64,000 bases of DNA from Bolinopsis microptera. Taxonomy: Eukaryota; Ctenophora; Tentaculata; Lobata; Bolinopsidae. The notes under the pieces were generated by a model that was given only the letters and a program-made list of their open reading frames with translations, had not been told where the DNA came from and ran no database searches. The DNA lies in NCBI RefSeq assembly GCF_026151205.1, contig NC_087074.1, positions 20,483,765 to 20,547,764 on the forward strand, written 5' to 3'. Below are positions 2,607 to 54,918 of the stretch, in pieces. A program made the position numbers and the translations under genes. Position 1 is the first letter of the stretch. Every line of letters begins with the position of its first letter.

Positions 2607-3804
2607 CTGGAAGATGTTAAGTTAGTAGTGTCTAGACTCTTATCTAGTCGAGGATCACTCTCAAACCTGCAATTAATTTAATAGCTCAACATATAAGAGA
2701 AATATAGTATATTTAATTACATTAAATATATACTTGTAATTAATAACTAAAACTAACAGGAGGGAGACTTTCTCTTCTTCTTCTTTTTCTTCTTGGTAAC
2801 AGAGTCAGGTACCTCCTCCTCCTCCTCCTCGTCATCATCTAACTCAAATGTCTTCAGATAGGAGTTCATAATACTCGGCTTTAGTTTCCGTCTCTTTCTC
2901 TGCGAGGCATGATTAATGAACATCACGTTCATTGGATTTAGGTTATGATTACCAGTATCAGTCACAATTTTACCTTTCTTGATATATTGGGGATACGACT
3001 AACAAAAACAAAAACTAGTAAATTAACTGAAAACATACTAAGCAAAAGATAATTAAACTTACGGGGGTATCAGGAGACGTGATCTCGGTAGAACTAGCAG
3101 AGGAAGATAACATCTTATCAGGGCTGAGGTCTGAGAAGTCACTCTTTATATCTATATCTTCATGGGACCTGTCTTTTTCTTCCGCACAATCTGATAATAA
3201 CAAAAAGTTAAGTGAACTTACTGATAGTGGACATTAAAAGCAGGATTATTAGTCTACCCCTCCCCCCCCCCCCCCCCCGGCCCCCCCCCCCCTATTATTA
3301 TGATCCTATTACTGTACTTGTCTGACATGACCAACCCCCCCCCCCCCCCCCGCCCCCACCCTGTACCCACTGTACTAAGAAACTAAACACAAAACACTTG
3401 ACTACTGACCAGGCAGGGGCTCGTCCTCACTGGGCTCACCCTCACTTGTATCTGACGAGGACATCTTGAAGGGCCGGTTGCTGGCGATAAGACGAGTCTG
3501 AACAGGATATAGCTATTAGAAATGTTGAAAGGTTTGTAATTCACTTGTTATGAAAAGTAACTACACGGGTATAGTGAAAGTGAAACTAAAACCGAGGACT
3601 AAAGTGAAAGTGGTAGTACTAACGTTGCAGAGTTTCTTAGGGGAGGAGTCACTAAGGGATACGTTCATGTCACGTGATATGAGAGGTTCGGAGTAGTCGG
3701 TGTAAACTCTGTCTATCTCAGCGTGCAGCAGTAGATCTCTAACTTCCTGGTGGTGGAACACGTGATAAATACTCTTCATATCATAGTGTTTCACTTGGGA
3801 CCAT
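2443..3804 (-). CDS. CXXC zinc-finger protein gene, five exons, partial
   Basis: Five minus-strand exons join in phase: 3624-3804, 3410-3497, 3063-3190, 2758-2998 and 2443-2606, each with GT-AG borders. The last one encodes a CXXC zinc finger with two CxxCxxC clusters (CGKCEQC and CGTCKFC) and a closing CILRRC. Fingers of this class bind unmethylated CpG in DNMT1, CFP1, MLL, KDM2 and MBD1. The KFGG motif of many members appears here as CFGG. The preceding exons are acidic, Ser-rich and contain a lysine run, so they look disordered and nuclear. I cannot choose the subfamily because both ends of the gene are missing. The first exon's acceptor lies in a 54-bp triplication. Confidence 0.7.
2758..2998 (-). 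CDS. Exon of the CXXC gene: acidic and lysine-rich linker
   Basis: The acceptor follows TTTTGTTAG and the donor is CTCCT|GTTAGT. It encodes a basic patch (QRKRRKLKPS), an aspartate/glutamate run and a lysine run (KKKKKKKRK) resembling a nuclear localisation signal. Confidence 0.6.
3063..3190 (-). CDS. Exon of the CXXC gene: Ser/Asp-rich segment
   Basis: Bounded by ATTATCAG and CCC|GTAAGT. Its phase fits both neighbours. It encodes a Ser-rich acidic segment without a recognised domain. Confidence 0.55.
3240..3360. repeat. Paired poly-C tracts
   Basis: Two C-runs (about 3258-3292, with one GG interruption, and 3335-3352) lie in the intron between two CXXC-gene exons. The opposite strand would be G-quadruplex prone. 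Confidence 0.7.
3410..3497 (-). CDS. Exon of the CXXC gene
   Basis: Bounded by CTGTTCAG and CCTG|GTCAGT, 88 nt. It encodes an acidic Ser/Glu-rich segment (SSSDTSEGEPSEDEPLPG) and joins in phase. Confidence 0.55.
3624..3804 (-). CDS. Exon of the CXXC gene with triplicated 5' boundary
   Basis: The acceptor ATTAATGCAG|ATGGTC and the first coding bases are part of a 54-bp unit present three times in tandem (about 3768-3932). The exon encodes a leucine-rich segment (EVRDLLLHAEIDRVYTDYS) and ends at AAC|GTTAGT. Confidence 0.55.
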
Positions 3805-3932
3805 CTGCATTAATGGATCCCAATACTCTTCATATCATAGTGTTTCACTTGGGACCATCTGCATTAATGGATCCCAATACTCTTCATATCATAGTGTTTC
3901 ACTTGGGACCATCTGCATTAATGGATCCCAAT
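3768..3932. repeat. 54-bp direct repeat, three copies, containing a splice acceptor
   Basis: The unit includes CTTCATATCATAGTGTTTCA and GGACCATCTGCATTAATGG. On the minus strand each copy carries the acceptor TGCAG and the start of the adjacent CXXC-gene exon. 54 bp is a multiple of three. Confidence 0.85.
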
Positions 3933-8604: not shown

Positions 8605-8683
8605 TACGGAAACCCTAGACCTAGAGCGCCTACATCCCTCGCAACTGGAAGAGGACGACTGCAGATCCCTCTCCGGTGAACCT

Positions 8684-27400: not shown

Positions 27401-28215
27401 ATTAAAATGCCGCTTGGGCCAAATGCAGTGAGCCAGTACGGTACGGTCGTAGGAGCAAGTGGCTCTGAAGACTAAAACTTGTGAGACTGATGAGGCTGAT
27501 GCTGAAAAAGAAGACTAAAAGAGGGGGAAGCAAAGGAGAAGGAAAGGATGCAGGGGGACAAGAAAAAAAGAAACAAGAGTGGAGACAAACCACCTGCTGA
27601 GGTCTGGCTAAAATCAGAATGCAGTGAGCGGCCCGTGTAACATAATCGTCCGTGGCAGTCTACCCCGTACGCAGACTACGGTCCAAGATTTCAGGCGCCA
27701 GAATACACCTTTTGGTGCAGAGCTGGTCACGACCAGGGTCCTCTCGGATACCCCGTCTCGGAGGTCGGGCCAATGGAGCGATCCATTGCTGTACTAACAA
27801 CCATTGTAACCCTATCACTCTGAAGGCCCCACAGTTCCTACATGGACGCACGGCCGGAAGCCCATGTAGGGACGGAAAGTCCCAAGAGTCGCTCATAGCA
27901 TCCGTCACAGATCCAAAGCAGAAGGAGAAGGAAAGAAAGAACGAGAAAAGCAGAAGAGAGCTGAAGGACTACTTTCCATCTTCATCACGAAGGCTGTCTT
28001 TGTGCTTGAGGTTCAGACTGTACATTTCTCTGATGGTTGAGCATGAAAGTCTAATCAAGTTCACATCCTGCTCGTTAAGGTTACCGTAAAGATTTTCGGT
28101 ACGAGATATGATATGTTTTATTTTTACGGCAATCTTTTGAACACAAAAATGAGAAAAAATTGTCTTGGCATTTTTTGTTGTTGATACTTTGCCCCGTTGA
28201 TTATCTTACTATACT
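27400..28215 (+). mobile_element. Probable 5' part of a LINE, no intact ORF
   Basis: This GC-richer stretch precedes the RT fragment and contains short palindromic words (GCAGTCTACCCCGTACGCAGACTAC). Short frames show a lysine/glutamate-rich segment. It is assigned to the LINE by position only. Confidence 0.35.
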
Positions 28216-28246
28216 GTGCCGTTCAGTGGTACTGGAGGGACCAGGA

Positions 28247-28977
28247 CCCGTAGATTTTATCATTTTCCTGCAGTTAAGGAAATGGCCGATCTGTTGCAGG
28301 AACAGTTCAGCTCTGTGTTTAGCGATCCGAACTCTCCTGATGTTAAGGATCCGGTTTTCTCCCCTCCCTCTATCCAGCACCCACAAGAACTAGAGGACTT
28401 TAGAATTAGTGACGAAGATATCATGTCAGCTATACAAAGTATCTCTACAGATTCTGCTTGTGGACCAGACGGAATACCTACAACTCTCTTGAAAAACTGT
28501 GCTAAGGAGTTGTGTTCTCCTATACGTATTATTTGGGAGGAATCATTCGAAAACGGTACAGTGCCATCGTTCTACGAAGACACCTATATTACACCACTAT
28601 TTAAAAAGGGCGACAGGGCCAAGGCAGTCAACTACAGACCAGTTGCTCTCACTTCGCACATCATCAAAGTGTATGAACGTATCCTCCGTGGTTTTATGGT
28701 TGACTTCATTGAGAAAAATCAGTTACTCTGCAACAACCAGCACGGGTTCCGCTCAGGAAGAAGCTGCATCACCCAGCTGTTAAGTCACGTAGACGATATA
28801 GTTCAGGGTCTTACTAGAAATGCAGACACTGACGCTATATATTTGGATTTTGCCAAAGCTTTTGATAAGGGCGATCATCGATTACTGCGTCTGAAAATGA
28901 AAAGATTTGGGTTTCATGAGAAGGTGGTAAACCGGATCCGATCCTTCCTGACTGAAAGAAGGCAATGTGTTGTGTAA
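28247..28977 (+). pseudogene. LINE reverse transcriptase, N-terminal half
   Basis: Recognisable non-LTR RT blocks: SACGPDGIPTTLLKNCA, ITPLFKKGDRAKAVNYRPVALT, NNQHGFRSGRSCITQL and motif A, AIYLDFAKAFDKGDH. The frame stops at TAA 28975-28977 before the catalytic YxDD block, which is absent. The family is CR1/Jockey-like in overall style; exact clade not determined. This copy cannot encode an active enzyme. Confidence 0.8.
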
Positions 28978-31490: not shown

Positions 31491-32041
31491 TCAGTCTGCA
31501 TCAGTCTGCATCAGTATGCATCAGTATGCATCAGTATGCATCAGTATGCATCAGTATGCATCAGTATGCGTCAGTCTGCATCAGTCTGCATCAGGCTGCA
31601 CCAGTCTGCATAAGTCTGCATCAGTCTGCATCAGTCTGCATCAGTATGCATCAGTCTGCATCAGTATGCATCAGTATGCATCAGTATGCATCAGTCTGAA
31701 TCAGTCTGAATCAGGCTGCATTAGTCTGCATCACTCTGCAACAGTCTGCATCAGCATGTATCAGTCTGCATCAGTATGCATCAGTCTGCCTCAGTCTGTA
31801 TCAGTCTGCAACAGTCTGCATCAGTCTGCAACAGTCTGCATCAGTATGCATCAGTCTGCATCAGTATGCATCAGTCTGCAACAGTCTGCATCAGTATGCA
31901 TCAGTATGCATCAGTATGCATCAGTCTGCATCAGTCTGCATCAGTCTGCATCAGTATGCATCAGTCTGCAACAGTCTGCATCAGTCTGCATCAGTCTGCA
32001 ACAGTATGCAACAGTCTGAATCAGGCTGCATCAGTCTGCAG
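31491..32041. repeat. 10-bp array (TCAGTMTGCA)n overlapping the CAPS stop codon
   Basis: About 55 copies, mostly TCAGTCTGCA or TCAGTATGCA. The last coding bases of the CAPS gene (Ser-Ala-Asp-stop on the minus strand) are read from the terminal repeat, so the array forms the start of the 3' UTR. Confidence 0.95.
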
Positions 32042-32183: not shown

Positions 32184-35100
32184 CTGGGTGAGAAGTAATG
32201 TTATAGGAGGGTTCGGAGTTGACTACCTTATCGGACGTTATTTGACCGGACATTGCGTGAAAAGACATAATTTTGAACGGACATTAAAATGAACGCTAGG
32301 GACTCCAGCGTCCAATTAATATCCGTTCAAATAAAATCCGATAAGGGTGTCATTTAATTAGGTTACAAGCTATCAGGTTCCAAGTCAGAATTCGGATGTA
32401 GTGCTTTATTCGACCAGTTCATTGATTAGTGAACAAGTATCTGATCAACAACAAACAATGTATAGTTATCGCAGAGAAGTTTGGACCTGTGAAGAGAATT
32501 CGGAGAAGAGAGTTTTGAAGATGGTCGAAATGGCACATAATTGGAAGTGATGCATGTCGATATTCTCCCTTTCGGTCAGCCAGTCTGCTATTGTCGTCAG
32601 TAAGGAGTTATACCTGAAATATACCTTCAGACATTGTTCAAGAGTTTGTAGCATATCAACTTATGGAAAATGTAATTAGAATAAAGCGACGAAGAAGTTA
32701 TTAGTTAGGTTGAATTTAAATTTAACTGTGAGATGCAATACACGATAATATTACCAGCAAAGTAGAAGACAGCTTGTCGAGCTTGGGTGAATTTCTTGTT
32801 TCATCTGAACATTGTTCTGTCGAACGTACGAAAACAAGGGTTCAACTATCGCAAGCTTGGGACCCATTATCCTGACATAATAATTTGAAGTTTGAAAACA
32901 CGATAATTACGATTATACTGTATTTAGACACGAAGGTGAACACATTAAAGATTAAGAGACACCCCCAGATCTGATACATGGCTAGAAAGATAAGAATAGC
33001 TTACGTATATAAATGAGAGAAGATAGAGTCCTTGTCATATCGGCTGAGCTTATCGAGAAGGATATCCAAACATTGGCTGAGTTGAGTGCAGACAAACTCA
33101 AACATTACGTTAATCCTCTGCGTCAGCAGGTCGTTTATCTCAGTTCTGTAGCTATACTCACCTGGATAATCATAAGATGTTTAACTAATAGGTTATTCAA
33201 ATATTTGTATAACTTATTTATTAGATTTTCGGATAAGGGACGAATGACTTAATGACTATGAGCACCCCATGATTTGAGATAAAATGTAATCAAATTTCCT
33301 ATCTTCAAATCTTTCCCTTTGAAATTAGAATAACAGTCCTAAAAGTGACAAATAAAGATTTCAGAAAACTAATTACTGCTGTTAGAGTTAGTGGCGTTTC
33401 CACAGAGTTCGTTTGCGTGGATACGAACAGTTATACAGGAATTCATCATCACACAAACTTCGTCTGGTAGGACAGAGTTGTAGGTTATCACGTTCCTCTA
33501 CACAACAGTTATTATCATTATTAACTTATAAGTAATTAACTTATTATTATTATTAACATATAAGTAATTAACTTATTATTATTATTAACTTATTAGTAAT
33601 TAACCTATTATTATTATTAACTTATAGGTAATTAACTTATTATCATTATTAACATATAAGCAATTAACTTATTATTGTTATTAACTTACAAGTAATTAAC
33701 TTATTATTATTAAGTTATATATATTATTAGTAAGTAAGAAGAGGGAATCAATTAACCTCCAGTTAGAAATGAGTTTACATACTTGCTGGTAAAACGGACA
33801 ATCACAATGTATATATTTCAATCTTGTCAATATCATTTGGAAAACCTGCAGGTCAAATTGTCGCCAGGAAAAAACCTGTAAACGAGGGTAAGTCTGAAGA
33901 ACTCCGTACACTTTACTGACAAAACAGTCAAATATCTCAGCAGTTGTTTTTTGGGTCCTGCTCTGGAGGTGTTCGGAGAATGTTTTGTCAGGCCACCTCA
34001 GCTCCGCGACCAGTTTCTGGGTATTCTTTACTTGAGCAACGATATCCAGTACAGCGCAGCACGAGAAATCCTGGGCAGGTGGGTTTTAATGTTATTGATG
34101 GTTAGTTGAGGTTTACTCCAAAAATTGATCTTATAGCTATTAGCTATCATCTTTTATCTAAAGCTTATGATAGATAATTCGAATATTACTACGACAGAGT
34201 TTGAAAAAAATTTGCAAGAATCAGTTTAACATATTAAGTTACATTAAAGGTTAAAAACCAAGGAGTTCTCGGTGCTAAATACCTCAGTACAGTTTTCGTT
34301 GAGCCACGTTTCTCTTTCTAACGCATCCTCTAACTCTTCCCTCAGTGTGGACTCCTCTTTCTCCAGGTAACTTACTATGTGAGGAGCAAACACCTGACAA
34401 AGATAACTTACTATGTGAGGAGCAAACACCTGACAAAGGTAACTTAATATGTGAGGAGCAAAACCTGACAATGGTAACTTACTATGTGAGGAGCAAACAC
34501 CTGACAAAGGTAACTTACTATGTGAGGAGCAAAACCTGACAATGGTAACTTACTATGTGAGGAGCAAACACCTGACAAAGGTAACTTTCTATGTGAGGAT
34601 TGAGGAGCAAACACCTGACAAAGATAACTTACATGTGAGGATTGGGGAGCAAACACCTGACAAAGGTAACTTAATATGTGAGGAGCAAACATCTGACAAA
34701 GGTAACTTACTATGTGAGGAGCAAACACCTGACAAAGGTAACTTAATATGTGAGGAGCAAAACCTGACAAAGATAACTTACTATGTGAGGAGCAAACACC
34801 TGACAAAGGTAACTTACTATGTGAGGAGCAAACACCTGACAAAGGTAACTTTCTATGTGAGGAGCAAACACCTGACAAAGGTAACTTACTATATGAGGAT
34901 TGAGGAGCAAACACCTGACAAAGATAACTTACTATATGAGGATTGAGGAGCAAACACCTGACAAAGATAACTTACTATGTGAGGAGCAATTAACACCTGA
35001 CAAAGATAACTTACTATGTGAGGAGCAAACACCTGACAAAGGTAACTTACTATGTGAGGAGCAAACACCTGACAAAGGTAACTTACTATGTGAGGAGCAA

Positions 35101-38100
35101 ACACCTGACAAAGATAACTTACTATGTGAGGAGCAAACACCTGACAAAGGTAACTTACTATGTGAGGAGCAAACACCTGACAAAGATAACTTACTATGTG
35201 AGGAGCAAACATCTGACAAAGATAACTTACTGTGCGAGGAGCAAACATCTGACAAAGGTAACTTTCTATGTGAGGAGCAAACACCTGACAAAGGTAACTT
35301 ACTATGTGAGGAGCAATTAACACCTGACAAAGGTAACTTTCTATGTGAGGAGCAAACACCTGACAAAGGTAACTTACTGTGCGAGGAGCAAACATCTGAC
35401 AAAGGTAACTTACTATGTGAGGAGCAAACACCTGACAAAGGTAACTTAATATGTGAGGAGCAAAACCTGACAAAGATAACTTACTATGTGAGGAGCAAAC
35501 ACCTGACAAAGGTAACTTACTATGTGAGGAGCAAACACCTGACAAAGGTAACTTTCTATGTGAGGAGCAAACACCTGACAAAGGTAACTTACTATATGAG
35601 GATTGAGGAGCAAACACCTGACAAAGATAACTTACTATATGAGGATTGAGGAGCAAACACCTGACAAAGATAACTTACTATGTGAGGAGCAAACACCTGA
35701 CAAAGATAACTTACTATGTGAGGAGCAAACACCTGACAAAGGTAACTTACTATGTGAGGAGCAAACACCTGACAAAGGTAACTTATTATGTGAGGAGCAA
35801 ACACCTGACAAAGATAACTTAATATGTGAGGAGCAAACACCTGACAAAGGTAACTTTCTATGTGAGGAGCAAAACCTGACAAAGATAACTTACTATGTGA
35901 GGAGCAAACATCTGACAAAGATAACTTACTGTGCGAGGAGCAAACATCTGACAAAGGTAACTTTCTATGTGAGGAGCAAACACCTGACAAAGGTAACTTA
36001 CTATATGAGGATTGAGGAGCAAACACCTGACAAAGATAACTTACTATATGAGGAGCAAACACCTGACAAAGGTAACTTACTGTGCGAGGAGCAAACATCT
36101 GACAAAGGTAACTTTCTATGTGAGGAGCAAACACCTGACAAAGGTAACTTACTATATGAGGATTGAGGAGCAAACACCTGACAAAGATAACTTACTATAT
36201 GAGGACCAAACACCTGACAAAGGTAACTTATTATGTGAGGAGCAAACACCTGACAAAGGTAACTTACTATGTGAGGAGCAAACACCTGACAAAGGTAACT
36301 TTCTATGTGAGGAGCAAATATCTGACAAAGGTAACTTACTATATGAGGATTGAGGAGCAAACACCTGACAAAGATAACTTACTATATGAGGATTGAGGAG
36401 CAAACACCTGACAAAGATAACTTACTATGTGAGGAGCAAACACCTGACAAAGGTAACTTAATATGTGAGGAGCAAACACCTGACAAAGGTAACTTACTAT
36501 GTGAGGAGCAAACACCTGACAAAGGTAACTTACTATGTGAGGAGCAAACACCTGACAAAGATAATTACTATGTGAGGAGCAAAACCTGACAAAGATATAA
36601 ATTAAAAGGTGAGAAAAACTATGTATATCCTAAAAAGACATATGTGATCGGCACCCTCTAAACCTTTATAGGACAGGATTACTGTATATTACTATACAAT
36701 ATGCATTACTACACAATATAAATTACTATACATTCCATTACTATACATTCCAATAAACGGCGTGATTGTCGCCAACCTGGTGAAGATGCATGTGGAACTT
36801 TCCGTATCTGAGTTCCTGTTCCTCGTAGAAGTAAGCGTTGAGCTTGTGAAACAATGGCAAGATATCCCGTGACCCAGACTCATGTGTGACCAGTACTGAC
36901 TCCATGTCCACTCCGTACAGTCGCCAGAATGTTTCATTCATCTCGTACATCATCCTGTCATACACGTTAAGGGCTTCTCCGTAGTGTTCTAGAGTTTCTT
37001 GGAGGAACTCAATGCAGGCATCAGCTAGCTGGATCATGTCATCCAAACCTGGATATGATTTACTTTTAATCGGCCGCCCGTTCAAGTCATGAACTGTTCA
37101 TTCATTTTAAAAATGACACGAAAGACAAGGTTTACACATTTATCATTTAACTAGTGTAACCCAGCCTTCGGCCGGGATTTCACTACCGCAGTTAAAAAGG
37201 GTAGAAGTATTTACCCGCTGAGTCAGTAACACATAATCGCATAATCAGTTCTTTCTCGTGGATAATTAAGTCATTATTAGGCGCCACATTCCATGATCAT
37301 AAGGTCCGTACACTCTGTACCACGTCCGTACACCCTGTACCACGACTATTACACCTCATCAATCCCGTCTTGAACTGCTATCCATTTTTATTTAAATCGT
37401 TTTAGAAATTAACCCTTATTAACTCCGCACCACACCCGCCGTCCCGCCTATTATATTTGAAAACATGCATTACATTGTTGTATGAAAGTATGAACTCTCT
37501 CTACAGTCCAAACAGTCCGCAATCAGTGCCCTTCACCCCTAAAATTAAAAAGCTTATAGTATTACTTGCGGGGCTAAACTAATTATGATTCATGTACCAA
37601 CGCTACATAATCTGCAGTAATGGAATAGAGAGCGAATAGGGAGAAAAAGTGAGCCATTTTATGTCACATTTGTGGTACAGAACCATCAATTAAACCACTT
37701 ACCAACGGCCGATTTTTTCAAAATTTGCTTATTCGCTTCGTCAGAGTTTTGTCGGCACTATACCGAAAAAAACCAGTCCCGTAACTCTTACCGCTTTTAA
37801 AATATAGCCGCTCGGAAATTTCCCGCACACACACATACACACATACATACATACAGATTTATTTAAATTATTGTTTAAGATTTATTTAAATTATTGTTTA
37901 AGATTTTAATGGCACAAAAGTCAATTCATATGACTGTGAAGGTTCAGCAACAGTCGAAAATACGACAGAAAGGAAATATTATGTGCAATAAATAAGATCA
38001 GCACTACACAATGGTCATTGCATACTTTACCGGTAAAGTCTAAATTGAATAGTTTGAGATTTCCTTTACATTTATATTTATGCATGTGCCCCACGGGGAT

Positions 38101-41100: not shown

Positions 41101-44100
41101 CGTCACAAAAAAATTATTATAACTCTGTCAGCTCCTTGCTGGCAAAATAACTAGTTTATCGAAATTTTTTTGATGATAAAGTTACATAGTATTCTAATAG
41201 AGGTATAGTTCTTCAAAATAGGGGCAAGACATGTTTACTTTGTCACATCAGTTATTATAAGAGTTAGGTAATCGTCATCAGATTAACCGATCTTTTTCGT
41301 AGTATGGATCGATTAATATAGGCAATAAAGCATCCTAATTCCTATGCCAATTTTAACACACTATCTTGATATTGTTGGGGCAGGAAAAGTTAATTTTGTC
41401 ACATTTTTAGTGACTTAGACAAATTTAACCTGAAATTGTTAAACTTGAGCTCTGATGTTCTGGACAATATTCTACCAATTTTTTCTGAAAGAATGTTGAA
41501 TTCTAATAGAGTTATAGAATATATAGATCTTCAAAATAGGGGCAAGACATGTTTACTTTGTCACATCAGTTATTATAAGAGTTATTAAAGGAGACTATTT
41601 CATTATATAATCATTGTTTTTAACCTATTTGCGATTTCGTATAATTTTTTGTGACAATGTAAACATCAACTGATCTTAACTTGCATCAACTACATTGTCA
41701 TCATGTAAAGTTTTCCCGCCTTTCAAACCAAAATCAGATATAAATAATTCGCCCAAAATTTTAAATTCCATATATTGTGACAGAATTAACCTCATGTCCC
41801 AATAACCAAGTGCCTGTATTAGCTAACCTTTCAAAGCAACATATTTAAGGGCTATGATTGGTACTCCGTACTTGGTAGATCAACCATCAAATAATGAGTA
41901 AAAAGGGTTTTGAGGACACATCACAGTAGAATAGAGGTATGGTATTCTGAGTGTGACAAAGTTACCTAAATATTGCCTTGTAACCGTTCAATCCGTGCCC
42001 TTTAACCAATGTTGTATCATAATTGTTAGATTGACCTAATCTACTATGTTTCAGGCCAAGGAATGGTAATTAGACAACTGCAGTTAATTAAGTCACACAA
42101 AATGTGACATTTGATACATTTTAGTGCCTAACAACAATAGATTTTCTTTCTGAGCAGTGCATATGGGAGTATGGGTTATGTGGCTAATGTTCAGAACTTC
42201 TGAACGTGCTAGGTTAATAGATGTCAAAATTAAGCCACTATCGTCAAAAACGCTATTATTTTTATTTACCAATATCCTCAAACTCAAATGAACGTGTCCA
42301 TATATGACATAATATTTTACAATCAACAGCATGCATGATAGAGGGACGACGCAAAGTGTTTAAAATAGGCAGTTTTACTGGCTTAATTAACTGTGGACCC
42401 CTCGGCTCAGTTTACAAATTTGGGCTGTATGTGACCAGATGGGACCAGTCTTCGTAATCTGCCATTATTAAATTTATGAAACGTTTCTCAATATGTTTGA
42501 CCGATGATACAGTTTCTGAGTTCTAAATTATTAGTTCGTCCTTATAAGCTGACATCGGTAATTTATATCTTTGCAGTATCTGTGTGAGCAAGATATAATT
42601 AGCATCTTGTATTATTTCATTCAATTTACACTTCAACCTATTTCAAAACCTTACGCTTCTCCATTAGATAATGTCGTCAAAGTCGGGACTTCGCAAAAAG
42701 ATTTTGGAAGAACATCGTCGAAGGGGATCAGCATGATTTTATGGTCAGGAGAGAATAGAAAGTTTAGGGCCATTTATTCTACCCCCAATTCCTGACAATA
42801 AGTTTATAGATGTGATTCCTGAAGGAACGGAGATAAAGGGGGTGAATCTGACTGAAAAGGAGCACCAGGATGCTTATGAAGCTGAAGTTTTAGTGTATAG
42901 AGGTTTAGAGGAAATATATACAAATAGTAAGCCAATTTCCTATTAGTGTTCCATTAGTAATCTATACATAGTAACTTTAACAATAATTCCGTGATGGTAG
43001 CAACACGCACGATACATTTCTCTACCGTTAGCAACAGCAACGCTCCAGCCCTAGTTGGATGGAAATTCTCCGATAAAACATACTCGAACTGAATTGAAAA
43101 CTCCTCCAAAAAGAACCTGGAACTTTGCCAAAACATACCTGGAACTTTGCCAAAACGAACCTGGAACTTTTGCAAAACGAATCTGGAACTTTCCCAAAAC
43201 GAATCTGTAACTTTTACAAAACGAATCTGTAACTTTTGCAAAACGAACCTGGAACTTGGCGTCCTCCTCGCAGTCCTGGTGATCGGGCGAGTAGTAGTTC
43301 ACAGTGTATCCCTCCAGAGTTAACATCTCATTGGGGGTGGCTTGTTTCTCCTTGTAGCTACACAGACAGAACACGATCTGACCCACTTTGACCAGCACAA
43401 TGTACCGCTGCTTCCACTTCTGCCAGTGCGATGTTCCTCTAATGTAGAGTAACCTGGTGATCACGTAATGTTAGTTGGGTAACAACTTGAGGTGTGTTGA
43501 ACCAGCTAGAGAAAATACATAGATACATGTACGTCTACTGATTGAGGAGCACTACCCAGAGGCATTACTCAAAATACAATAAAATTGAAGATATAAAGTA
43601 TTTATGGAACTTTACGGCAAAAACGATATAAACGACAAAGAACAGCTAAAAAAGAACAGCTAAAAAAGAACAGCTAACCCTCCAAGTTTCATGTTCTCAG
43701 GTTTATCCATCTTGACACAAGTCTTGATCTGTAAACCAAAGGCTTGATTGGGGAGTGCCACACCACCTTGTCCTACCTCCACCTTGGCTTCTAGGTCGTC
43801 CCACTTTGGCTTGTCTGACAGGGTTTCTGGCTTCATCTTGAACAGGATCTGGAGATATTCTTACTTTACGAGGCATATTGACAATTTGTGTTGTTTACAA
43901 TTTGACACTGAAGCATATAAAAACACACTAATTTGTAAACAATGTTTACAAGTTGATGCCAACTGAAACGTTGCCCGAACCCTATCAAACTAACCTCTCC
44001 AATAGGACGTCCCTCCATATAAAGAGGGTTATTACTCTCAATCCTGAGACAGACTCTAACACTGGGTAGAGGTTGTTTAGTCTGGAACTCTGCCTTGTTA

Positions 44101-47100
44101 GTCCACACCGGGTTTTTTTGACTGACAAGGTGAGTACACAGCACTTTGTTTGTCTGTCCCTCTATATCCATGGCACAGAATGCTTTACGTTCAGGCTGAA
44201 CCCCTTTTATTCCCGGGAGACCCCTGGAGAGGTTCTTCAGTTAGAGGGTTACAAATAATTATAATAACTTTTAAACTCAGGCACTGCAGTCAACCTGGAG
44301 AGGTTCTTCAGTTAGAGGGTTACAAATAATTATAATAACTTTTAAACTCAGGCACTGCAGTCTACCATCAAAGTTATGTGGATCAGTGAATATAGGTTGA
44401 ATTTTCGTTTAATTATCCCAAAAATGGTGTTGATTTTTCTCAAAGTGTAATCAGTTTTATTCTACTGTAGAATCCACACATAAGTTACTTACTTAACTTC
44501 CATAACCTCTACCTCGACGTTAAAGTTAAGGACGAAGTCATGTTTGCAAGGCAGACTTTTACCAACTTTATCACTACCATCAAACTGCATCTGGTTCATA
44601 TCTGTTTGATAGCACTTATTATTATATCGGCTGATACGTGCGAGGATATGAAGAACACAGCACAATTTCAATAAATACTACAAAACACTCATTCACTGAA
44701 CCTATCTACCTTTCATGGGGTTGGTATGTTTGTCTTGAAGTCCCCGTACATTCTTCCTCTCTTCTTCCCGGTACTGGGCTGCCATGTCATGGTGTATAAA
44801 CAAGTAAGGAGGACGTTCCCCGCTGTTAACCTACAGGGTAGTGGAACTTGTGTGGCATTCAGATAAGAAATGGGGGTTCCACTGGAGGTGAACTTTTATT
44901 TGTAAACTGTAAACTGATAGATGTTTTAACACGAAAGTTGAAATAATTAGAGCGGCTACTAGAAGAAGCACTTACCCTAGCAGATCTGTTCTCAAGTTCC
45001 CTCCTCACAGCTGCAGTTTGCTCGTCATTATTGTTCAGCTGCATTGCATTAAACAGTAGTTTGTGTTCGTACGATGTTACCTAATAGAGCACTGCGTTCA
45101 ATGAATTGTTGGGATTTGAACTGTTCATCTTAAGTCGTGTAAATATTGCAAAGTGTGCGCCATCAAAATATTAGAATTTCAAAAAATCAGTCCAGCAAAA
45201 TTAGGAGTGGTAGTTTGCAGGTATAACTATAAATTAGGAGTGGTAGTTTGCAGGTATAACTATAAATTAGGAGTGGTAGTTTGCAGGTATAACTGCAAAT
45301 TAGGAGTGGTAGTTTGCAGGTATAACTGAGTGGTAGTTTGCAGGTATAACTGAGTGGTAGTTTGCAGGTATAACTGAGTGGTAGTTTGCAGTGGTAGTTT
45401 GCAGTGGTAGTTTGCAGGTATAACTGTGGTAGTTTGCAGGTATAACTGTGGTAGTTTGCAGGTATAACTAAGTGATTTTTTGATTTGAAACTTTTACAAA
45501 ATAGCAAATATACAAATGTACAGCAAATCGAACAAACATATAAAATGGGCCGAAATGTATAAATGCTATAAAGCGTGGGTCAGTGAAACAAGTTCAGAGG
45601 ACAACTTTTAAAACACGAGGTTTATGGCCGCCCAAAGTCTCAATAACGTCACCTCCACCTAGTAATAAAGTTATGAAATATGAAGTGTGAAACAAATTAT
45701 GAAATATGAAGTGTAAAACAATCAAGAAATAGCTCGTATATAAATTATAAAATTGTCTCTCAAATACAGATAACGTCCGAGAACTATTAAGATACACAAT
45801 ACTCATTCAAATAGTGATCAGTGTCCGAGAGACATGAATTGCTTCACGGTGGTTTCTTATCACGGCTACAGACTTTCCCGTACCGGATATAGTGGTCGAG
45901 ATGAGTCTGTTCAACCCTCTTCTTCTTCAGGTCCGTAACCAGATGTTTCCTCGTTGCTCGTTCTTCGCTAGATCTATCTGGACAGATCCATACATTTTTG
46001 TGGGTCTCAACTAGCCTCAGTCTTCCTGTTTTCGTCAGAATCTGTTGAACCGCTGTAGAGCTTGGGACAGTGATCTTTACTGGTCGGATAGTCGTACTAC
46101 CTGGCCTCTTCCTGCCGACTCTAGTCGCTTCGAAGTGAGGTTTCTCCCCAATCTCCTCCAGAACTGCGGTTACTAGCGCTGGAAGCTGTTCTCCCTCTTC
46201 TTCTTTCAACCCAAACACGATCAGGTTCTTGCTCCTGTCCTCCTCTGCAGCCACACTCTTCATCACCTTCTTCAGGATGTTACTGTTGCAGACCGTACCA
46301 CTTGCACTGTTCTGTTGTACAGCTGCACTGTAGCTCTTTATCCCTGACTCCACCGTTGTTTGCACTGTCTTCTTAACCGACGTCTTAAACAACTCTAGTT
46401 CTTTGTCCTTCTGCACAAGCAGCTGGCCCTGCAGCCTGATCAACTTATCCTTGTCTTCTAACGCTTCCGTCTTCAAGAAATATATGATCTCCTCCATTTT
46501 ACCCATCTGGCATTCATGCCGTTGAACGAGGTCTATTGCTTCCACAAGCCGAAGTGCCAGATGCTTTTTATAGACAGTTGGAGCCATAAATATTTCTCTG
46601 TCCATATCTCGGCACTATCCGTCGCGGAGTAGAGTCCGCGGCGGAGCCGCCGGACTCCGAGCGGACTCCGAGCGGACTCCGAGCGGACTCCGGCGGAGCC
46701 GCCGGACTCCGAGCGGACTCCGGCGGTGCTCCGCCAAAATGTATTTACACTGGACTCGAGTACATTTTGGCGGACTCCGAGCGGAGCCGAGCGGACTCCG
46801 AGCGGACTTTAAAGTCCGCCGCGGACTCCGAGCGGCTCCGCGGCGGCTCGGCGGAGTGTCCGCCGCGGACTAAGCCACTAGGCGGACTCCGGTCCGCCGC
46901 GGACTCCGGCGGAGTGCTTGGCGGACTCCGCCGGACCTCTCCGCCAGACTTGAATCCGGCGGAGTCCGGCGGAGCTTGGCGGAGTCCGCCAGCTCGGCGG
47001 ACTCCGCTCGGAGTCCGCCGGACTCCAACAGAGTCCACTGACTTCCGACCTCCGACTTCCGACCCTCGGCTAAATTTGTCACGTGACATACAACATAGCA

Positions 47101-50100: not shown

Positions 50101-53100
50101 GCTGGCGTCGTCCTGTGATGGTCGACGTATTTTTGCTTGCTGGGATCCGGCCGAATGACGCCACATGCAACGTGTAGGGTAAAACTAAAAACGCTTCCCT
50201 ATATGAGATAATATGACAAAAATTGTTTTGGTCACGTGACCAGTCAATGACATTGATATTTCGCTGCTGGCGGTTTGGTGGAGGGTTAGGGTCAACGTTT
50301 ATACATTATAGGGTCAAAGTTAGGACTAGAGTTGTACACTATTGACATTGTGAGGGTAATGGTTAAGGTTTATCACTAGCGACCTTTTCATCTGACCACA
50401 ATATCGCAAAATGCTATTGGCTATGTTGTATGTCACGTGACAAATTTAGCCGAGGGTCGGAAGTCGGAAGTCGGAAGTCAGTGGACTCTGTTGGAGTCCG
50501 GCGGACTCCGAGCGGAGTCCAAGCTCCGCCGGATTCAAGTCTGGCGGAGAGGTCCGGCGGAGTCCGCCAAGCACTCCGCCGGAGTCCGCGGCGGACCGGA
50601 GTCCGCCTAGTGGCTTAGTCCGCGGCGGACACTCCGCCGAGCCGCCGCGGAGCCGCTCGGAGTCCGCGGCGGACTTTAAAGTCCGCTCGGAGTCCGCTCG
50701 GCTCCGCTCGGAGTCCGCCAAAATGTACTCGAGTCCAGTGTAAATACATTTTGGCGGAGCACCGCCGGAGTCCGCTCGGAGTCCGGCGGCTCCGCCGGAG
50801 TCCGCTCGGAGTCCGCTTGGAGTCCGGCGGCTCCGCCGCGGACTCTACTCCGCGACGGATAGTGCCCATATCTCCACAAATATCTCTGTCGTCGATTTTC
50901 AGTTCTTTTCCCAGCGTAATGAACCACTTAGTAACACTGTCCTTCAATTTTGTCTGTTCATCATACTCGAATCCTTGAATTTGGTCCAGAGATTGGGTCA
51001 CCTTACGATCATCCTCCATAATGTACTTGTATAGGAATGTACAAGTACACACGCAAAGGCTAACTACGCGGTAGCAGCAAACTGAACTTATCGCAATTTA
51101 CAAAAGATAAGAGAGCTCGATAATTGCAACGTAAGCTACACTGACTACACACTGGTAGTTTGCAGGTATAACTGAGTGGTAGTTTGCAGGTATAACTATA
51201 AATTAGGGGTGGTAGTGTGCAGGTATAACTGACCTCTAGAATCTTCTGGAACAGGGTGTAGAGCTGGTTCTTGTTGAGTTGACCCTCAGTGTTGGTTACC
51301 CTTCTATCATGTTCCTCTGAGCTCTGGGATACTATCTCGTCATACTCCGTTATCCACTCGCCTGGAGAGAGAGAGCGTTACTTAGAGCGTTACTTAGAGC
51401 GTTACTTAGAGCGTTACTTAGAGCGTTACTTAGAGCGTTACTTAGAGCGTTACTTAGAGCGTTACTTAGAGCGTTACTTAGAGCGTTACTTAGAGCGCTA
51501 CTTAGAGCGTTACTTAGAGCGTTACTTAGAGCGTTACTTGGAGCGTTACTTATAACGTTACTTAGAGCGTTACTTAGTGCGTTACTTAGAGCGTTACTTA
51601 GAGCGTTACTTGGAGCGTTACTTGGAGCGCTACTTAGAGCGTTACTTGGAGCGTTACTTAGAGCGTTACTTAGAGCGTTACTTAGAGCGTTACTTAGAGT
51701 GTCATTATCAAAATCTTGAGCTGCTGTAATCAGTTATAGTATGTAATATGGTAATGAGTAATAGAGTACTTTTGTGCATTTTTTCATACTACAATGGTAA
51801 AAACAGTTCTTAGTACTTCAGCGTTACACTCCGTTTTGTATTTCTATGAAATTCCACTGTTATTTTCATCTAGCATATAAAGTATATAATATAGTATATA
51901 CCCTCCAAACTGATAGTAATTGCTTGGGAATTGCTCGAATAATTGTCAGCGATACCAACAGTTGTTCATGTTTACGTCACCCTGACGACACCAGTGAACT
52001 GTTCTAGTGTTCCCGGTGGTATCTCAAAGACAATCAAATCAAAATATTGCACCCGTATTCAAAATTCATTATGTTGCTCAAACTCATCAGCTGATCTATA
52101 TACAAACAGCCGGGTCTGACTGAGAGAATTAGTACACTGTGATTGTTGTCCTAATATCAGACTATACCACAATCCTGTGGTGGATAGTATTTCTGATATA
52201 GTATTCCAGAAAGCACACTATTGTGGGCTTACTTGTGTTGGGCTAACGAGTGTACACCCAACATTCCAACATTCCAACAATAGTCAGTAGTCACCATGGT
52301 GACTAGTCAGTAGTCACCATCAATCAATCATAGATTCCGTTCATAGCATTCATAAACTGTACTACAATCTACTCCCGGAATATAACTAACTAATTGCTCA
52401 CTAATTACTCACTAATGGTGTACAAGTGGTGGTCATTTTTTGACACCCAGGACCAGTCGGAAAACTGGTCATGTTCTGAAAGGACCGTGTACTCACCTAA
52501 ACAGTGATCATTCTCAGATCATGTAGAATTTGTAAACATGAATTTCCAAATATTTTCATTCATTGCCGAATTTTAGAGCGCTTACTTGAACCACAATGCC
52601 TGCTCAGACTTTAATAGATACGGATAACCAAATACAAGGATGAGTATATTATACGCTAAAATCAAAAATGTACATAATATTCTTGAAATTTGATACACTG
52701 ATCAACCAAGTTGCTGACATAACATACTGTCTAAATACACACCATTTACCATGACGTAGGTGGGAACACCACCATTATACTAAAAGTCATCAAATTATTA
52801 TTTCATTGGTTTTTACATCAAATTATTATTGCAAGTACAAATTGTCTTTGTCAAAATCCCGGTACCGGTCACATAACTGCTAATAATGAAGTTATGATCA
52901 GTCGATAACTTGATAAAGTAAGTAATAACTTGATAAAGTAAGTAATAACTTGATAAATATAAAGTAAGTAATAACTTGATAAAGTAAGTAATAACTTGAG
53001 AAAGTAAGTAATAACTTGATAAAGTAAGTAATAACTTGATAAAGTAAGTAATAACTTGATAAAGTAAGTAATAACTTGATAAAGTAAGTAATAACTTGAA

Positions 53101-54918
53101 ATATTAAGTAACTCACTGAGAAGCTCCATTCTACTGTATTAAGTAATAACTTGATAAAGTAAGTAATAACTTGAAATATTAAGTAACTCACTGAGAAGCT
53201 CCATTCTACTGTATTAAGTAATAACTTGATAAAGTAAGTAATAACTTGATAAAGTTAGTTATAACTTGATAAAGTAAGTAATAACTTGATAAAGTAAGTA
53301 ATAACTTAAAATATTAAGTAACTCACTGAGAAGCTCCATTCTACTGTATTAAGTAATAACTTGATAAAGTAAGTAATAACTTGATATAGTAAGTAATAAC
53401 TTGACAAAGTAAGTAATAACTTGATAAAGTAAGTAATAACTTGATAAAGTAAGTAATAACTTGAAATATTAAGTAACTCACTGAGAAGCTCCATTCTACT
53501 GTATTAAGTAATAACTTGATAAAGTTAGTTATAACTTGAAATATTAAGCAACTCACTGAGAAGCTCCATTCTACTGTATTCCTGATCATCAGGGAGCTGA
53601 CATACCAGCTGATAGATCTTCTTCTTGAAGACATGCTGGAAATCTTTTGTTGTGTACCTGCGGGATTTGACCTTATTTGGTAATGTTACCTTGGCGATAT
53701 TACCTTAGTGAAACATGATTTTTATAAGGAAGGCAATGTTTACTGGGAAGGGAGGTAAGCTGAACATCTCTAAGGGAGAAGTCAGTCGTAATATTTGAGG
53801 GAACGAGAGACCAATTGTGGAGGCAGGTTTTAACTTTAGTCAGACAGCAGTAGCACGAGGTGAAATACCCTGCTTATCATCCCAAAAAGAGACATAAGTA
53901 GTAAATAAGTAAAAGTGTAGTTACCCTCCACTTTTAGTCATCTCTATAGCACGCTTACTCATGAGAAACACGCTGAAGAACCAGTTGACCGCTTCTATAA
54001 ACACAGCTGAAAAGTTCAGCTCGTCAATATTTCACAATACATGTTTGTTTAAATCACCTAATTCGAGTTGTATTGTGAAAGCATGAGCAACTAACCATTT
54101 ACCAGTTACCAAGACAGCAACCCCTGAGGTTAAAATATAGGCACTCACTTTAACTTAAATGTAACTTTTAATTTTAAATCTTTAAGTAAGAGATAGAAAG
54201 CGTAAAGAGAAAAGTACTCTAAAGAATCTGAAGAATCTTACCGTCTTTGGAGCTGATGTTGTCAGGAGAGTCCAGATAGTCTTTAAACTTATCCTTCATC
54301 TTCGTTAACACAATCTCGTTGATATTCATGTACCTGTCATTTCAGCGTCATCAAACACGCACAATCAACACTTTATATTAAAACAAAACAATACAGTTGT
54401 ACGAATGAAAGCTTGATGAAAACAATTGGAATAGCACCAAAAGGAAAATGTCCTAGAAAAGTATCTATACTTTTTCTTGTTTATAAGCTTTTTAATAACT
54501 TTTTATAAAATAGTTTAGAAACTTCAATTCTCCGTTCACACTACTACACAGTTCACAATATATACCTGTATCCACGATCAGAGGCCTGTTTAGTAGTAAA
54601 GGGATAAGCAATACAGCGAGATAAGAGTATGTAAATCTGCTTCTGAGTCTTCTTGTAGGCTTCCTGTACTGGGTCCTTCTTCAGCTGAACAGGGATTAAT
54701 ATGATTATTAGTTAAACATAATCAAGCATAATTAAACATAATTAAACTTAATTAATATAACTACTGGACAACTGATGCAAAATTAAAAAACCAACCGTTG
54801 TCCCGAAAGTGAAACCATTCTTAAGATTCTCAGCTTTAACAGGATCTAGTTTGATCTTCTCCTGATCATTCAACTCGTTCTCACTCCCTGATTCCTCAGA
54901 TTCACTGTTCTCTATCAT
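32031..54918 (-). CDS. Cadps: Calcium-dependent secretion activator (CAPS/CADPS) gene
   Basis: About 24 minus-strand exons give a protein of roughly 1200 residues (vertebrate CAPS is about 1350). Order: acidic N-terminus (MIENSESEESGSENE), the conserved RCIAYPF block, a helical region (FNAMQLNNNDEQ), a C2-like domain, a PH domain (HWQKWKQRYIVLVKVGQI ... LWVNALYRATGQ), then the MUN/CAPS region (QQITHFRNSFPFGRP, KCLEQGAYINY, VFAPHIVSY, DKLSRYD) and an acidic Ser/Glu tail. CAPS primes dense-core vesicles for calcium-triggered exocytosis, binding SNAREs through MUN and phosphoinositide through PH. All but the exon 22/23 joints agree in phase. Introns are packed with arrays and transposons. Compared with vertebrates the sequence is strongly diverged but collinear. 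Confidence 0.92.
32487..32654 (-). CDS. Cadps: CAPS exon 23
   Basis: Donor TCACAG|GTCCAA. Encodes LLTTIADWLTERENIDMHHF, matching the C-terminal MUN block (CTWLTDRMDLQLH in vertebrates). The acceptor near 32654-32665 is not fixed. Confidence 0.75.
32764..32820 (-). CDS. Cadps: CAPS exon 22 (borders uncertain)
   Basis: Encodes SPKLDKLSSTLL between exons 21 and 23; donor GCTG|GTAATA. The phase to either neighbour is not fully consistent, so the borders are tentative. Confidence 0.4.
33005..33151 (-). CDS. Cadps: CAPS exon 21
   Basis: Encodes EINDLLTQRINVMFEF and LDKLSRYDKDSIFSH, matching the vertebrate KIDELIEE ... LAKLSRYDEGTLFSS block. Donor ATAC|GTAAGC. Confidence 0.8.
33505..33725. repeat. 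Degenerate AT-rich tandem repeat, about 31 bp
   Basis: Six or seven units of TTATTATTATTAACTTATAA+GTAATTAAC in CAPS intron 20, ending about 30 bp before exon 20. Confidence 0.85.
33757..34070 (-). CDS. Cadps: CAPS exon 20
   Basis: Acceptor CTGCCCAG. Encodes VAELRWPDKTFSEHLQSR, equal to the vertebrate IRDLHWPEEEFGKHLEQR block, then the following MUN helices. Donor TGGAG|GTTAAT. Confidence 0.82.
34283..34393 (-). CDS. Cadps: CAPS exon 19, whose start is the first unit of a minisatellite
   Basis: Acceptor CTTTGTCAG|GTGTTTGC. Encodes VFAPHIVSYLEKEEST and LERETWLNEN, matching vertebrate LFAPLVVRYVDLMESS and FERESWEP. The acceptor and first nine codons are the terminal copy of the 34364-36598 array. 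Donor CTGAG|GTATTT. Confidence 0.82.
34364..36598. repeat. 36-bp minisatellite made of a CAPS splice acceptor and exon start
   Basis: About 60 units, mostly 36 bp with 35- and 43-bp variants. On the minus strand a unit reads CTTTGTCAG|GTGTTTGCTCC then TCACATA|GTAAGTTAC. It thus holds the acceptor of exon 19, its first bases and a good donor consensus (GTAAGT). In the exon frame one unit encodes VFAPHIVSYLCQ without a stop. Confidence 0.95.
36777..37048 (-). CDS. Cadps: CAPS exon 18
   Basis: Acceptor ATATCCAG, donor CACCAG|GTTGGC. Encodes MIQLADACIEFLQETLEHYG, FWRLYGVDME and ILPLFHKLNAY ... GKFHMHLHQ, collinear with vertebrate MUN sequence (FLSLFAVDMD, GKFHKHLQ). Confidence 0.88.
37049..38190. 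other. CAPS intron 17
   Basis: Unique AT-rich sequence with a short CACACATACATA tract at about 37825-37855 and a duplicated AAGATTTATTTAAATTATTG (37853-37900). No inserted gene seen. Confidence 0.5.
38191..38331 (-). CDS. Cadps: CAPS exon 17
   Basis: Encodes CRKQTMKCLEQGAYINYLQI, the vertebrate VIRKCLEQAALVNYSRL block. Acceptor TGTAG; the donor CCCTG|GTCCGT is weak but phase-correct. Confidence 0.82.
38482..38644 (-). CDS. Cadps: CAPS exon 16
   Basis: Encodes LLMQQITHFRNSFPFGRPDN, nearly identical to the vertebrate QITHFRYCFPFGRPE motif that marks the start of the MUN/CAPS region. Confidence 0.92.
38854..38982 (-). CDS. Cadps: CAPS exon 15
   Basis: 43 codons, phase 0-0, encoding FVIDPNKFRDLFKNC and DDGVWTVTKEEFLEFHQ (vertebrate MIDPTLLHYSFAFC ... 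GIGTVTVEEKERFEEI). Confidence 0.85.
39139..39324 (-). CDS. Cadps: CAPS exon 14
   Basis: 62 codons, phase 0-0. LTLEYRIKKESTACRGWLST and FALMEYAERYGIR match vertebrate [20 protein letters not shown] and VLDEYCARNGVR. Confidence 0.88.
39477..39683 (-). CDS. Cadps: CAPS exon 13 (end of PH domain)
   Basis: 69 codons, phase 0-0. Encodes FRLLKEGEEVTCGAKD and LWVNALYRATGQ, the C-terminal strand and helix of the CAPS PH domain. Confidence 0.9.
39949..42302. mobile_element. 2.35-kb TA-target TIR element in CAPS intron 12
   Basis: Inverted ends of about 40 bp (TATGGACACGTTCATTTGAG, then TTTGAGGATATTGGTAAATA) are flanked by TA on both sides. The interior has no transposase; it repeats words such as GTTTACTTTGTCACAT and holds a diverged duplication (about 41193-41270 and 41500-41586). 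TA duplication suggests a Tc1/mariner-type non-autonomous element. Confidence 0.7.
42671..42946 (+). pseudogene. Unrecognised plus-strand ORF with one in-frame stop
   Basis: From ATG 42671 the frame reads MSSKSGLRKKILEEHRRRGS, meets TGA at 42734-42736, then continues in the same frame (LGPFILPPIPDNKFIDVIPE ... EHQDAYEAEVLVYRGLEEIY) to TAG near 42946. Composition looks coding on both sides. It lies antisense in CAPS intron 12 and may be a retrocopy or an old exon; family unknown. Confidence 0.45.
43080..43248. repeat. 22-bp array derived from the CAPS exon 12 donor
   Basis: About seven diverged units. On the minus strand they read AAGTTCCAG|GTTCGTTTTGC, copying the last bases of exon 12 and its 5' splice site. 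Confidence 0.85.
43249..43453 (-). CDS. Cadps: CAPS exon 12 (PH domain)
   Basis: Encodes SHWQKWKQRYIVLVKVGQIV, CSYKEKQATPNEMLTLEGYT and VNYYSPDHQD, the first strands of the PH domain. Donor TTCCAG|GTTCGT lies in a 22-bp array. Confidence 0.92.
43679..43848 (-). CDS. Cadps: CAPS exon 11 (C2/PH junction)
   Basis: Encodes ILFKMKPETLSDKPKWDDLE and VKMDKPENMKLGG, matching the vertebrate segment ending RMDKPQNMKHSG that precedes the PH domain. Confidence 0.88.
43995..44223 (-). CDS. Cadps: CAPS exon 10 (C2 domain)
   Basis: Encodes AFCAMDIEGQTNKVLCT, NPVWTNKAEFQTKQPLPSVR and LYMEGRPIGE, collinear with the vertebrate C2 domain (YCTMEVEGG ... GDFSTTHALPAVKVKLF). The acceptor lies in a two-copy repeat. 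Confidence 0.88.
44224..44365. repeat. 68-bp tandem duplication including the exon 10 acceptor
   Basis: Two nearly identical copies containing CCTGGAGAGGTTCTTCAGTT. Each carries the minus-strand acceptor CTGAAGAACCTCTCCAG. Confidence 0.8.
44493..44601 (-). CDS. Cadps: CAPS exon 9
   Basis: Encodes FVLNFNVEVEVMEVK, the first C2 strand (vertebrate LSFSLEVVIMEVQGLK). Donor GTTAA|GTAAGT. Confidence 0.85.
44710..44830 (-). CDS. Cadps: CAPS exon 8
   Basis: Encodes MAAQYREEERKNVRGLQDKH, a helical linker with limited similarity; phase joins both neighbours. Confidence 0.75.
44976..45080 (-). CDS. Cadps: CAPS exon 7
   Basis: 35 codons, phase 0-0. YEHKLLFNAMQLNNNDEQ and VRRELENR match vertebrate FEHQLLYNACQLDNPDEQ ... 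IRRELDGR. Confidence 0.92.
45190..45476. repeat. 24-bp minisatellite in CAPS intron 6, left part
   Basis: Units of AGTGGTAGTTTGCAGGTATA+ACTG with deletions. The array continues at 51153-51233 on the far side of the LINE insertion, so it is the pre-insertion site. Confidence 0.92.
45844..46610 (-). pseudogene. LINE ORF1, C-terminal part of the interrupted copy
   Basis: About 253 codons identical at protein level to residues 51-303 of the copy at 1021-1932. The upstream coding part lies beyond the inserted element at 50867-51019, so the gene is broken. Confidence 0.85.
46625..47045. repeat. CG-rich short repeats in the left arm
   Basis: Dense GGCGGACTCCGAGC and TCCGGCGGAGT words in both orientations; the counterpart in the right arm is about 50480-50850. 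Strong hairpins are expected. Confidence 0.85.
47916..49254. other. Unpaired core of the GC-rich TIR element
   Basis: Short frames only (longest about 118 codons on the minus strand). At 49055-49130 there are imperfect GGGGCACTNGT repeats. No domain recognised. Confidence 0.5.
49255..49603 (+). mobile_element. Solo left end of the MULE family
   Basis: This matches 6845-7203 of the complete MULE, from the G-run and CCAATGACTACCAATGG through GACCCATCAGCATGGACATT, with small deletions, then abuts the right arm of the GC-rich element. The rest of the MULE is missing. Confidence 0.85.
49739..49812 (-). mobile_element. 74-bp MITE, copy 3
   Basis: Reverse-oriented relative of the MITEs at 30400 and 30983. 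It interrupts the right arm of the GC-rich element and has the perfect 8-bp duplication CTGCAAGC (49731-49738 and 49813-49820); the left arm lacks it. Confidence 0.88.
50875..51019 (-). pseudogene. LINE ORF1, N-terminal part of the interrupted copy
   Basis: Starts at the ATG complementary to 51017-51019 and encodes MEDDRKVTQSLDQIQGFEYD... up to the insertion site, identical to copy 1. Confidence 0.8.
51153..51233. repeat. 24-bp minisatellite in CAPS intron 6, right part
   Basis: Continuation of the 45190-45476 array. It abuts the exon 6 donor directly: on the minus strand GAG|GTCAGTTATACCTGCA leads straight into the units. Confidence 0.88.
51234..51361 (-). CDS. Cadps: CAPS exon 6
   Basis: Encodes EWITEYDEIVSQSSEEHDRR and NKNQLYTLFQKILE (vertebrate SSWMAKFDAIYR ... 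SKEQLYEMFQNIL). Arrays abut it on both sides: the 24-bp array at the donor and the 12-bp array a few bases from the acceptor. Confidence 0.88.
51372..51702. repeat. 12-bp array (GAGCGTTACTTA)n
   Basis: About 27 units next to the exon 6 acceptor, with a few substitutions. Confidence 0.95.
51703..52894. other. CAPS intron 5, unique part
   Basis: AT-rich sequence with no frame of interest; a direct repeat of ACTAGTCAGTAGTCACCATN-like words occurs at about 52282-52322. Confidence 0.4.
52895..53556. repeat. 20-bp array with four copies of the exon 5 end and donor
   Basis: The main unit is ATAACTTGATAAAGTAAGTA. Embedded at about 53101-53140, 53174-53215, 53311-53350 and 53464-53505 are copies of AACTCACTGAGAAGCTCCAT+TCTACTGTATT, which on the minus strand is the last part of exon 5 followed by its donor (CTTCTCA|GTGAGT). 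Confidence 0.93.
53557..53657 (-). CDS. Cadps: CAPS exon 5
   Basis: Encodes YTTKDFQHVFKKKIYQLVCQ and LPDDQEYSRMELLS, equivalent to vertebrate [20 protein letters not shown]. Donor CTCA|GTGAGT. Confidence 0.85.
53935..54006 (-). CDS. Cadps: CAPS exon 4
   Basis: 72 nt. AVNWFFSVFLMSKRAIEMTK matches vertebrate [20 protein letters not shown]. Confidence 0.85.
54242..54333 (-). CDS. Cadps: CAPS exon 3
   Basis: Encodes YMNINEIVLTKMKDKFKDYL (vertebrate KISKQQLQTVKDRFQAFL). Acceptor CTGACAG-type, donor GACG|GTAAGA. Confidence 0.83.
54566..54684 (-). CDS. Cadps: CAPS exon 2
   Basis: Encodes KKTQKQIYILLSRCIAYPFT, including the RCIAYPF motif conserved in CAPS proteins. Acceptor CTGTTCAG, donor TACAG|GTATAT. 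Confidence 0.9.
54796..54918 (-). CDS. Cadps: CAPS exon 1 (first coding)
   Basis: ATG at 54916-54918 and 41 codons of acidic sequence (MIENSESEESGSENELN), like the acidic N-terminus of vertebrate CAPS. Donor ACAACG|GTTGGT. An acceptor-like CCCTTCAG about 40 bp upstream suggests a separate non-coding first exon. Confidence 0.8.

Follow-up and report, generated by a model that had tools for sequence, protein, structure and literature searches.

The 64,000-nucleotide stretch of the Bolinopsis microptera genome analysed here (contig NC_087074.1, positions 20,483,765 to 20,547,764; "the window") raises the question of how the spliceosome deals with an exon that is preceded by some 60 tandem copies of its own acceptor and first codons. 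Tandem Repeats Finder (TRF) delimits this array in the window with a period of 36, 60.1 copies and 90% matches. Cutting the array at the acceptor core yielded TTGTCAG in 60 of 60 copies, that is 59 decoys plus the authentic copy before position 34393. The copies lie head-to-tail on the minus strand, and each unit combines the last 9 nt of the intron with the first 27 nt of the exon, with the consensus GTGTTTGCTCCTCACATAGTAAGTTAC for the exon start and CTTTGTCAG for the intron end. In the authentic copy the 27 exonic nucleotides (VFAPHIVSY) lie within the array and the exon then continues to its donor, GAG|GTATTT, at 34283. Most decoy units are 36 nt long (41), the others measure 43 (nine), 35 (five), 39 (two), 42 or 34 nt (one each); 24 distinct sequences occur among the 59, with recurring multi-unit blocks. 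A 20-mer across the junction has 43 exact matches in the genome of 264.65 Mb, every one of them within this array, while the same pattern read backwards, used as control, has none. As far as exact matches go, the junction is confined to this locus, and the dispersal to other loci that is the trait of introner-like sequences was not found. The array is real and far beyond chance. Coordinates are collected in Table 1.

Table 1. Tandem arrays, splice signals and exons at the array locus, elsewhere in the window and at other loci of the genome
Feature	Position	Strand	Unit and copies	Remarks
Acceptor-plus-exon-start array	34365..36594	-	36 bp	59 decoy units and authentic copy
Authentic CAPS exon, VFAPHIVSYLEKEESTLREELEDALERETWLNENCTE	34283..34393	-		111 nt; last array copy makes up its first 27-29 nt; MUN profile 140-183
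Authentic 3' splice site, CTTTGTCAG	34394..34402	-		PWM score 3.6
GTAAGT within authentic exon	34370..34375	-		18 nt from exon start; present in 41 of 59 decoys
Branch-point-like CTCAC	34414..34418	-		A at about -23; in exon-derived part of preceding unit; motif only
Intron before 5'-most copy, long pyrimidine-rich stretch TTTTTCTCACCTTTTAATTTATATCTTTGTCAG	36586..36635	-		joint highest decoy score, 7.2
Non-repeated rest of array intron	36595..36776	-		182 nt; donor CAG|GTTGGC at 36776
Upstream CAPS exon	36777..37048	-		ends GKFHMHLHQ; MUN profile 47-140
Downstream CAPS exon	33876..34070	-		MUN profile 192-246; 3' edge likely, not certain
CAPS donor array	52905..53580	-	about 75 bp	last 23 nt of exon ending 53557, then GTGAGT; 5 exon-edge copies
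CAPS donor array, PH exon (ends 43249)	43105..43257	-	22 bp x 7	last 9 nt of exon, then GTTCGT
CAPS acceptor duplication	44223..44366	-	71 bp x 2	CTCTCCAG and 1 exon nt; acceptor at 44224
CAPS stop-codon array	31491..32040	-	10 bp x 55	from last codons and stop (GCA GAC TGA) into 3' UTR
CAPS array before acceptor	51372..51699	-	12 bp x 27	ends 10 nt before acceptor of exon at 51361
CAPS repeats after donor 51233	51170..51230	-	33 bp	from intron +4; unit recurs at 45198-45474, other intron end
CAPS array after donor 43678	43637..43677	-	14 bp x 3	from intron +2
Probable acceptor array	3768..3932	-	54 bp x 3.1	TTAATGCAG and 36 nt of open frame WSQVKHYDMKSI; candidate exon near zf-CXXC-coding stretch
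iGluR exon acceptor array (C8)	L031:1688-3296		52 bp x 31	unit not a multiple of three
iGluR exon donor array (C4)	L034:35-1545		54 bp x about 28 (>20 copies)	46 nt exon end, then GTAAGAGT
Dynein heavy-chain exon donor array	L073:9506-9671		30 bp x 5	12 nt exon, then GTAAGT

The domains predicted exon by exon with Pfam, C2_CAPS (1.3e-9), PH (4.1e-6) and MUN (1.1e-9 and 1.7e-7), follow the CAPS/CADPS order, and tblastn with a human CAPS sequence, which served as a probe only, agrees on gene and exon identity. On this sequence evidence, the gene is CAPS/CADPS, which encodes a nerve-secretion protein. The exon behind the array matches the MUN profile on its own with 20.8 bits, which is below the family cut-off of 24.2, but the profile runs on through three successive exons. 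Since the array exon sits between its two neighbours in the genome as well as in the profile, its assignment as a MUN exon is secure. VFAPHIVSY aligns to a conserved stretch of CAPS and the array is intronic, thus the copying would have run from the exon into the array. For the exon model every junction was inspected by hand and its string shown to be unique, and unsettled edges were omitted; an automatic spliced alignment of the human CAPS sequence to the window had returned many spurious tiny exons and was replaced by these junctions. The preliminary description of the locus, made from the letters without database searches, had already named the gene, counted about 60 tandem copies of acceptor plus exon start, placed the authentic acceptor at 34394 in front of VFAPHIVSY and read the 36-nt unit as VFAPHIVSYLCQ in the exon frame, and in all of this it was right.

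It had also seen two possible outcomes, namely that the spliceosome ignores the decoys or that the exon is hypervariable, with upstream acceptors being used and 12-residue VFAPHIVSYLCQ repeats inserted in the MUN domain. The 36-nt unit is indeed open in the exon frame, and if splicing joined directly to the nearest decoy, the protein would gain exactly 12 residues and no stop codon. The nearest decoy is, however, the only one that works: the second-nearest unit is 35 nt long and shifts the frame, and 58 of the 59 extensions contain a stop before the exon end, further units meeting one whether in frame or not. Unit lengths drift freely, and since 15 of the 59 (those of 34, 35 or 43 nt) are not multiples of three, the frame is not maintained along the array. 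Moreover, an insert would land inside a conserved domain. A hypervariable exon is therefore highly improbable, and the expectation that the nearest decoys, in the plural, would lengthen the protein in frame is true for one of them. That the decoys are ignored fits the array much better.

Every copy offers an AG, and upstream of 56 of the 60 there is a branch-point-like YTNAY whose A falls in the range from -45 to -15. Usually this motif is CTCAC at -23, which is supplied by the exon-derived part of the unit before. We scored the acceptors with a small matrix built from the 18 other CAPS acceptors, on which the authentic acceptor is the lowest of the 19 scored in the gene, the other 18 all being higher, and 28 of the 59 decoys score equal to or above it. 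Local sequence is thus not enough to tell the right copy from the others. The best upstream context belongs to the 5'-most copy, so that simple first-AG scanning would predict the wrong choice; the pyrimidine-rich stretch upstream of this copy is probably the ancestral acceptor context. Both the weakness of the authentic site and the favourable position of the 5'-most copy speak against the explanation that we prefer below. Every copy keeps the acceptor core unchanged and 18 of the 59 decoys no longer have GTAAGT, a pattern that might suggest selection for the core or against the donor; we do not claim such selection since variants spread among units by repeat turnover.

It might also be possible that the units are used as 18-nt microexons, giving in-frame VFAPHI inserts, or as steps of recursive splicing during intron removal. 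The preliminary description had credited each unit with an 18-nt exon followed by GTAAGT. This holds for most units as far as the donor is concerned (intact in 41 of 59) but not for all, and 29 decoys have 18 nt between acceptor and GTAAGT, eight have 25 nt, and four have 21, 24 or 17 nt. An in-frame segment from AG to an intact GTAAGT is thereby offered by 29 decoys with 18 nt and by three with 21 or 24 nt. There is precedent as well: in potato the end of an intron was duplicated in tandem together with the start of the exon, which activated a cryptic GTAAG and generated a new intron and exon (PMC4974935), and in human tandem repeats an AGGT site can work in both roles, as donor and as acceptor (PMC10809524). 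However, an exon of 18 nt would be very short, and neighbouring decoys are only 18 nt of would-be intron apart, so that microexon use would require the skipping of units. On the donor matrix of the gene, ATA|GTAAGT does not exceed 6.2, compared to 7-11 for most real CAPS donors, and besides the 18 units without GTAAGT nine more have an out-of-frame segment. We therefore regard microexons or recursive splicing as unlikely. The wider proposal that splicing proceeds stepwise through the array, that some transcripts carry one or more in-frame 18-nt VFAPHI microexons, and that array length sets a diversity of protein or expression between individuals, is very unlikely.

Taking the anatomy of the array, the identity of the exon, the frame loss for nearly all decoys and the recurrence of edge arrays, all of which are directly established, we consider it very probable that the array is a minisatellite of the kind termed mirage, a tolerated growth rather than a special device, from which splicing drops all but the outermost copy. 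A short tandem duplication would by chance have spanned the 3' splice site, taking 9 nt of intron and 27 nt of exon, and slippage or unequal exchange would then have extended it within the intron until it comprised about 60 copies. Nearly every unit would bring its own branch-point-like CTCAC and AG, so that the copy adjoining the exon stays a complete acceptor at any array length, which would explain why the array is tolerated. Splicing to the last acceptor would discard every decoy and leave the protein unchanged. The downstream donor of the 111-nt exon may define the exon and thereby select the last copy among near-identical sites, and the purine-rich exon body GGAGAAAGAGGAG possibly also contributes to this choice. 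More generally, this genome might form minisatellites readily and selection might remove those inside exons, while those that cross a splice site would survive since splicing to the outermost copy keeps the protein unchanged.

Where the intron itself came from is a related question. Introns can arise when a piece of exon with an AGGT in it is duplicated in tandem, in which case the array would be the body of the intron (Rogers-type gain). Such gains are documented and most units do contain a CAG|GT junction, but in such a gain both splice sites come from the duplicated segment, and here the intron, which runs from the donor at 36776 to the acceptor at 34394, has its donor (CAG|GTTGGC) and 182 nt of its sequence outside the array. 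In addition, the unit contains true intron-end sequence. This origin is accordingly quite improbable, and the array looks like growth inside a pre-existing intron.

Tandem repeats spanning exon-intron boundaries have been named mirages in amphioxus, where they occur in Adh3 and in the globin genes BflGb6 and BflGb9, with further cases cited (PMC3087553). They lie at the 5' or the 3' boundary, repeat the AG or GT signals and vary between haplotypes, and splicing was normal by RT-PCR (PMC3087553). The CAPS array resembles them in that its unit spans the boundary, splice signals are present in many units and the authentic boundary is the outermost copy; arrays at both boundary types are likewise present in the genome. 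Every mirage feature that we checked in the sequence was thus found, and we therefore class the array as a mirage. It differs in its host, a ctenophore instead of a cephalochordate, in being known from genome sequence alone, and in its dimensions, with about 60 short units compared to 3-6 units of 150-160 bp in BflGb6 and units of 10-72 bp in Adh3 (PMC3087553). Among the papers searched, none described mirages in ctenophores, although this does not prove that they are lacking there. The kind is known, though little studied, and the CAPS case stands out by its copy number and by how frequently arrays of this kind turn up again in a small sample.

Other known systems are more distant. Internal tandem repeats in human segmental duplications are also of minisatellite size, also sit at exon-intron boundaries and also offer alternative splice sites, but they are often exonic, have few copies and are partly transcribed as alternative introns (PMC2812944), whereas the CAPS array is intronic and non-coding. 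The dual-specific AGGT arrays of human UBC share the CAG|GT junctions repeated at fixed spacing; there each repeat is a complete protein unit in frame, and the number used varies (PMC10809524), while the CAPS units lose the frame and run into stops and are not in-frame coding monomers. The intron gain in potato RdRp started from a duplicated segment that, as here, held branch site, acceptor, exon start and a cryptic GTAAG (PMC4974935). That was one duplication which made a used intron, unlike the roughly 59 CAPS copies, which most likely stay within one intron.

What the preliminary description missed is that the array is one case of donor, acceptor and stop-codon arrays that recur in the gene and the genome. 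The exon-edge copies of the 75-bp CAPS donor array are at 53569, 53494, 53339, 53204 and 53129, and in the PH-exon array decoys 2-4 read CAG|ATTCGT. Three further CAPS arrays (units of 12, 33 and 14 bp) start or end at most 10 nt from an exon. Outside CAPS we covered a small sample of glutamate-receptor, dynein and kinase loci, in which most kinase matches were single-exon. The 52-bp iGluR unit consists of 19 nt of intron end, including CTAAC and CCCCCAG, and 33 nt of exon start. In the 54-bp iGluR donor array all spacings are multiples of 3, yet the first repeat contains a stop, and CAG|AT replaces CAG|GT in 5 of 26 copies. The dynein array came from regions fetched by exon position, blind to repeats. 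This recurrence also bears on whether long-read assembly could have inflated a short array. Assembling tandem arrays is difficult, and a single assembly supplies the copy number, but an artefact would have to account for the 24 distinct sequences and recurring multi-unit blocks among the decoys and for similar arrays on other chromosomes, which makes it extremely unlikely.

To compare array positions with the exon model, we placed arrays at random over CAPS. In four cases an array reaches 5-40 nt across an exon edge, compared to 1.0 expected, and 93 of 5000 random placements reach four; this excess is modest (p about 0.02, with a hand-curated exon model). No array overlaps an exon away from its edges against 4.0 expected, 26 of 5000 placements having none. 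Thus, arrays in CAPS avoid exon interiors, not exon edges. A test of distance only, between array ends and exon edges, gave a weak excess, with five within 10 nt against 1.5 expected, and was not significant within 5 or 20 nt; of the two tests, the one on edge crossing is the clearer.

If edge arrays are as common as the small sample suggests, a single ctenophore genome would contain a large set of natural experiments. In each of them acceptors or donors that are nearly identical would compete by the tens, and nothing but position and exon context could settle the outcome. The choice of the spliceosome among equal sites is an old question that such arrays would make directly testable. They would also provide a route for the lengthening of introns, and possibly for new introns, in one of the earliest animal lineages.

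Several minor observations were made alongside. A change from CAGG to CAGA at the junction is frequent in three arrays (43105-43257 and 34365-36594 of the window, and L034:35-1545); it could reflect mutation bias, shared descent or selection against decoys, the numbers being too small to choose. The best PDB matches of the glutamate-receptor ligand domain of this genome are entries for ML032222a, which is from the ctenophore Mnemiopsis. In the CAPS intron at 45198-51233 of the window, a 24/33-bp unit is found at both ends with element-like sequence between, as if an insertion had split one array. A near-identical long open frame occurs in three places of the window (943-1932 on the plus strand, 45844-46614 and 50615-51097 on the minus strand); a Pfam search with the first copy returned no match, and the frame probably encodes a mobile element protein. 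At 11025-12845 (plus strand) lies an intronless open frame of 606 amino acids with formyl-transferase N and C and enoyl-CoA hydratase domains, an arrangement known from bacterial HypX, and it is followed by a 12-bp array of 56 copies. A MULE transposase domain (8579-9361) and a reverse-transcriptase domain (28201-28977) are encoded on the plus strand of the window.
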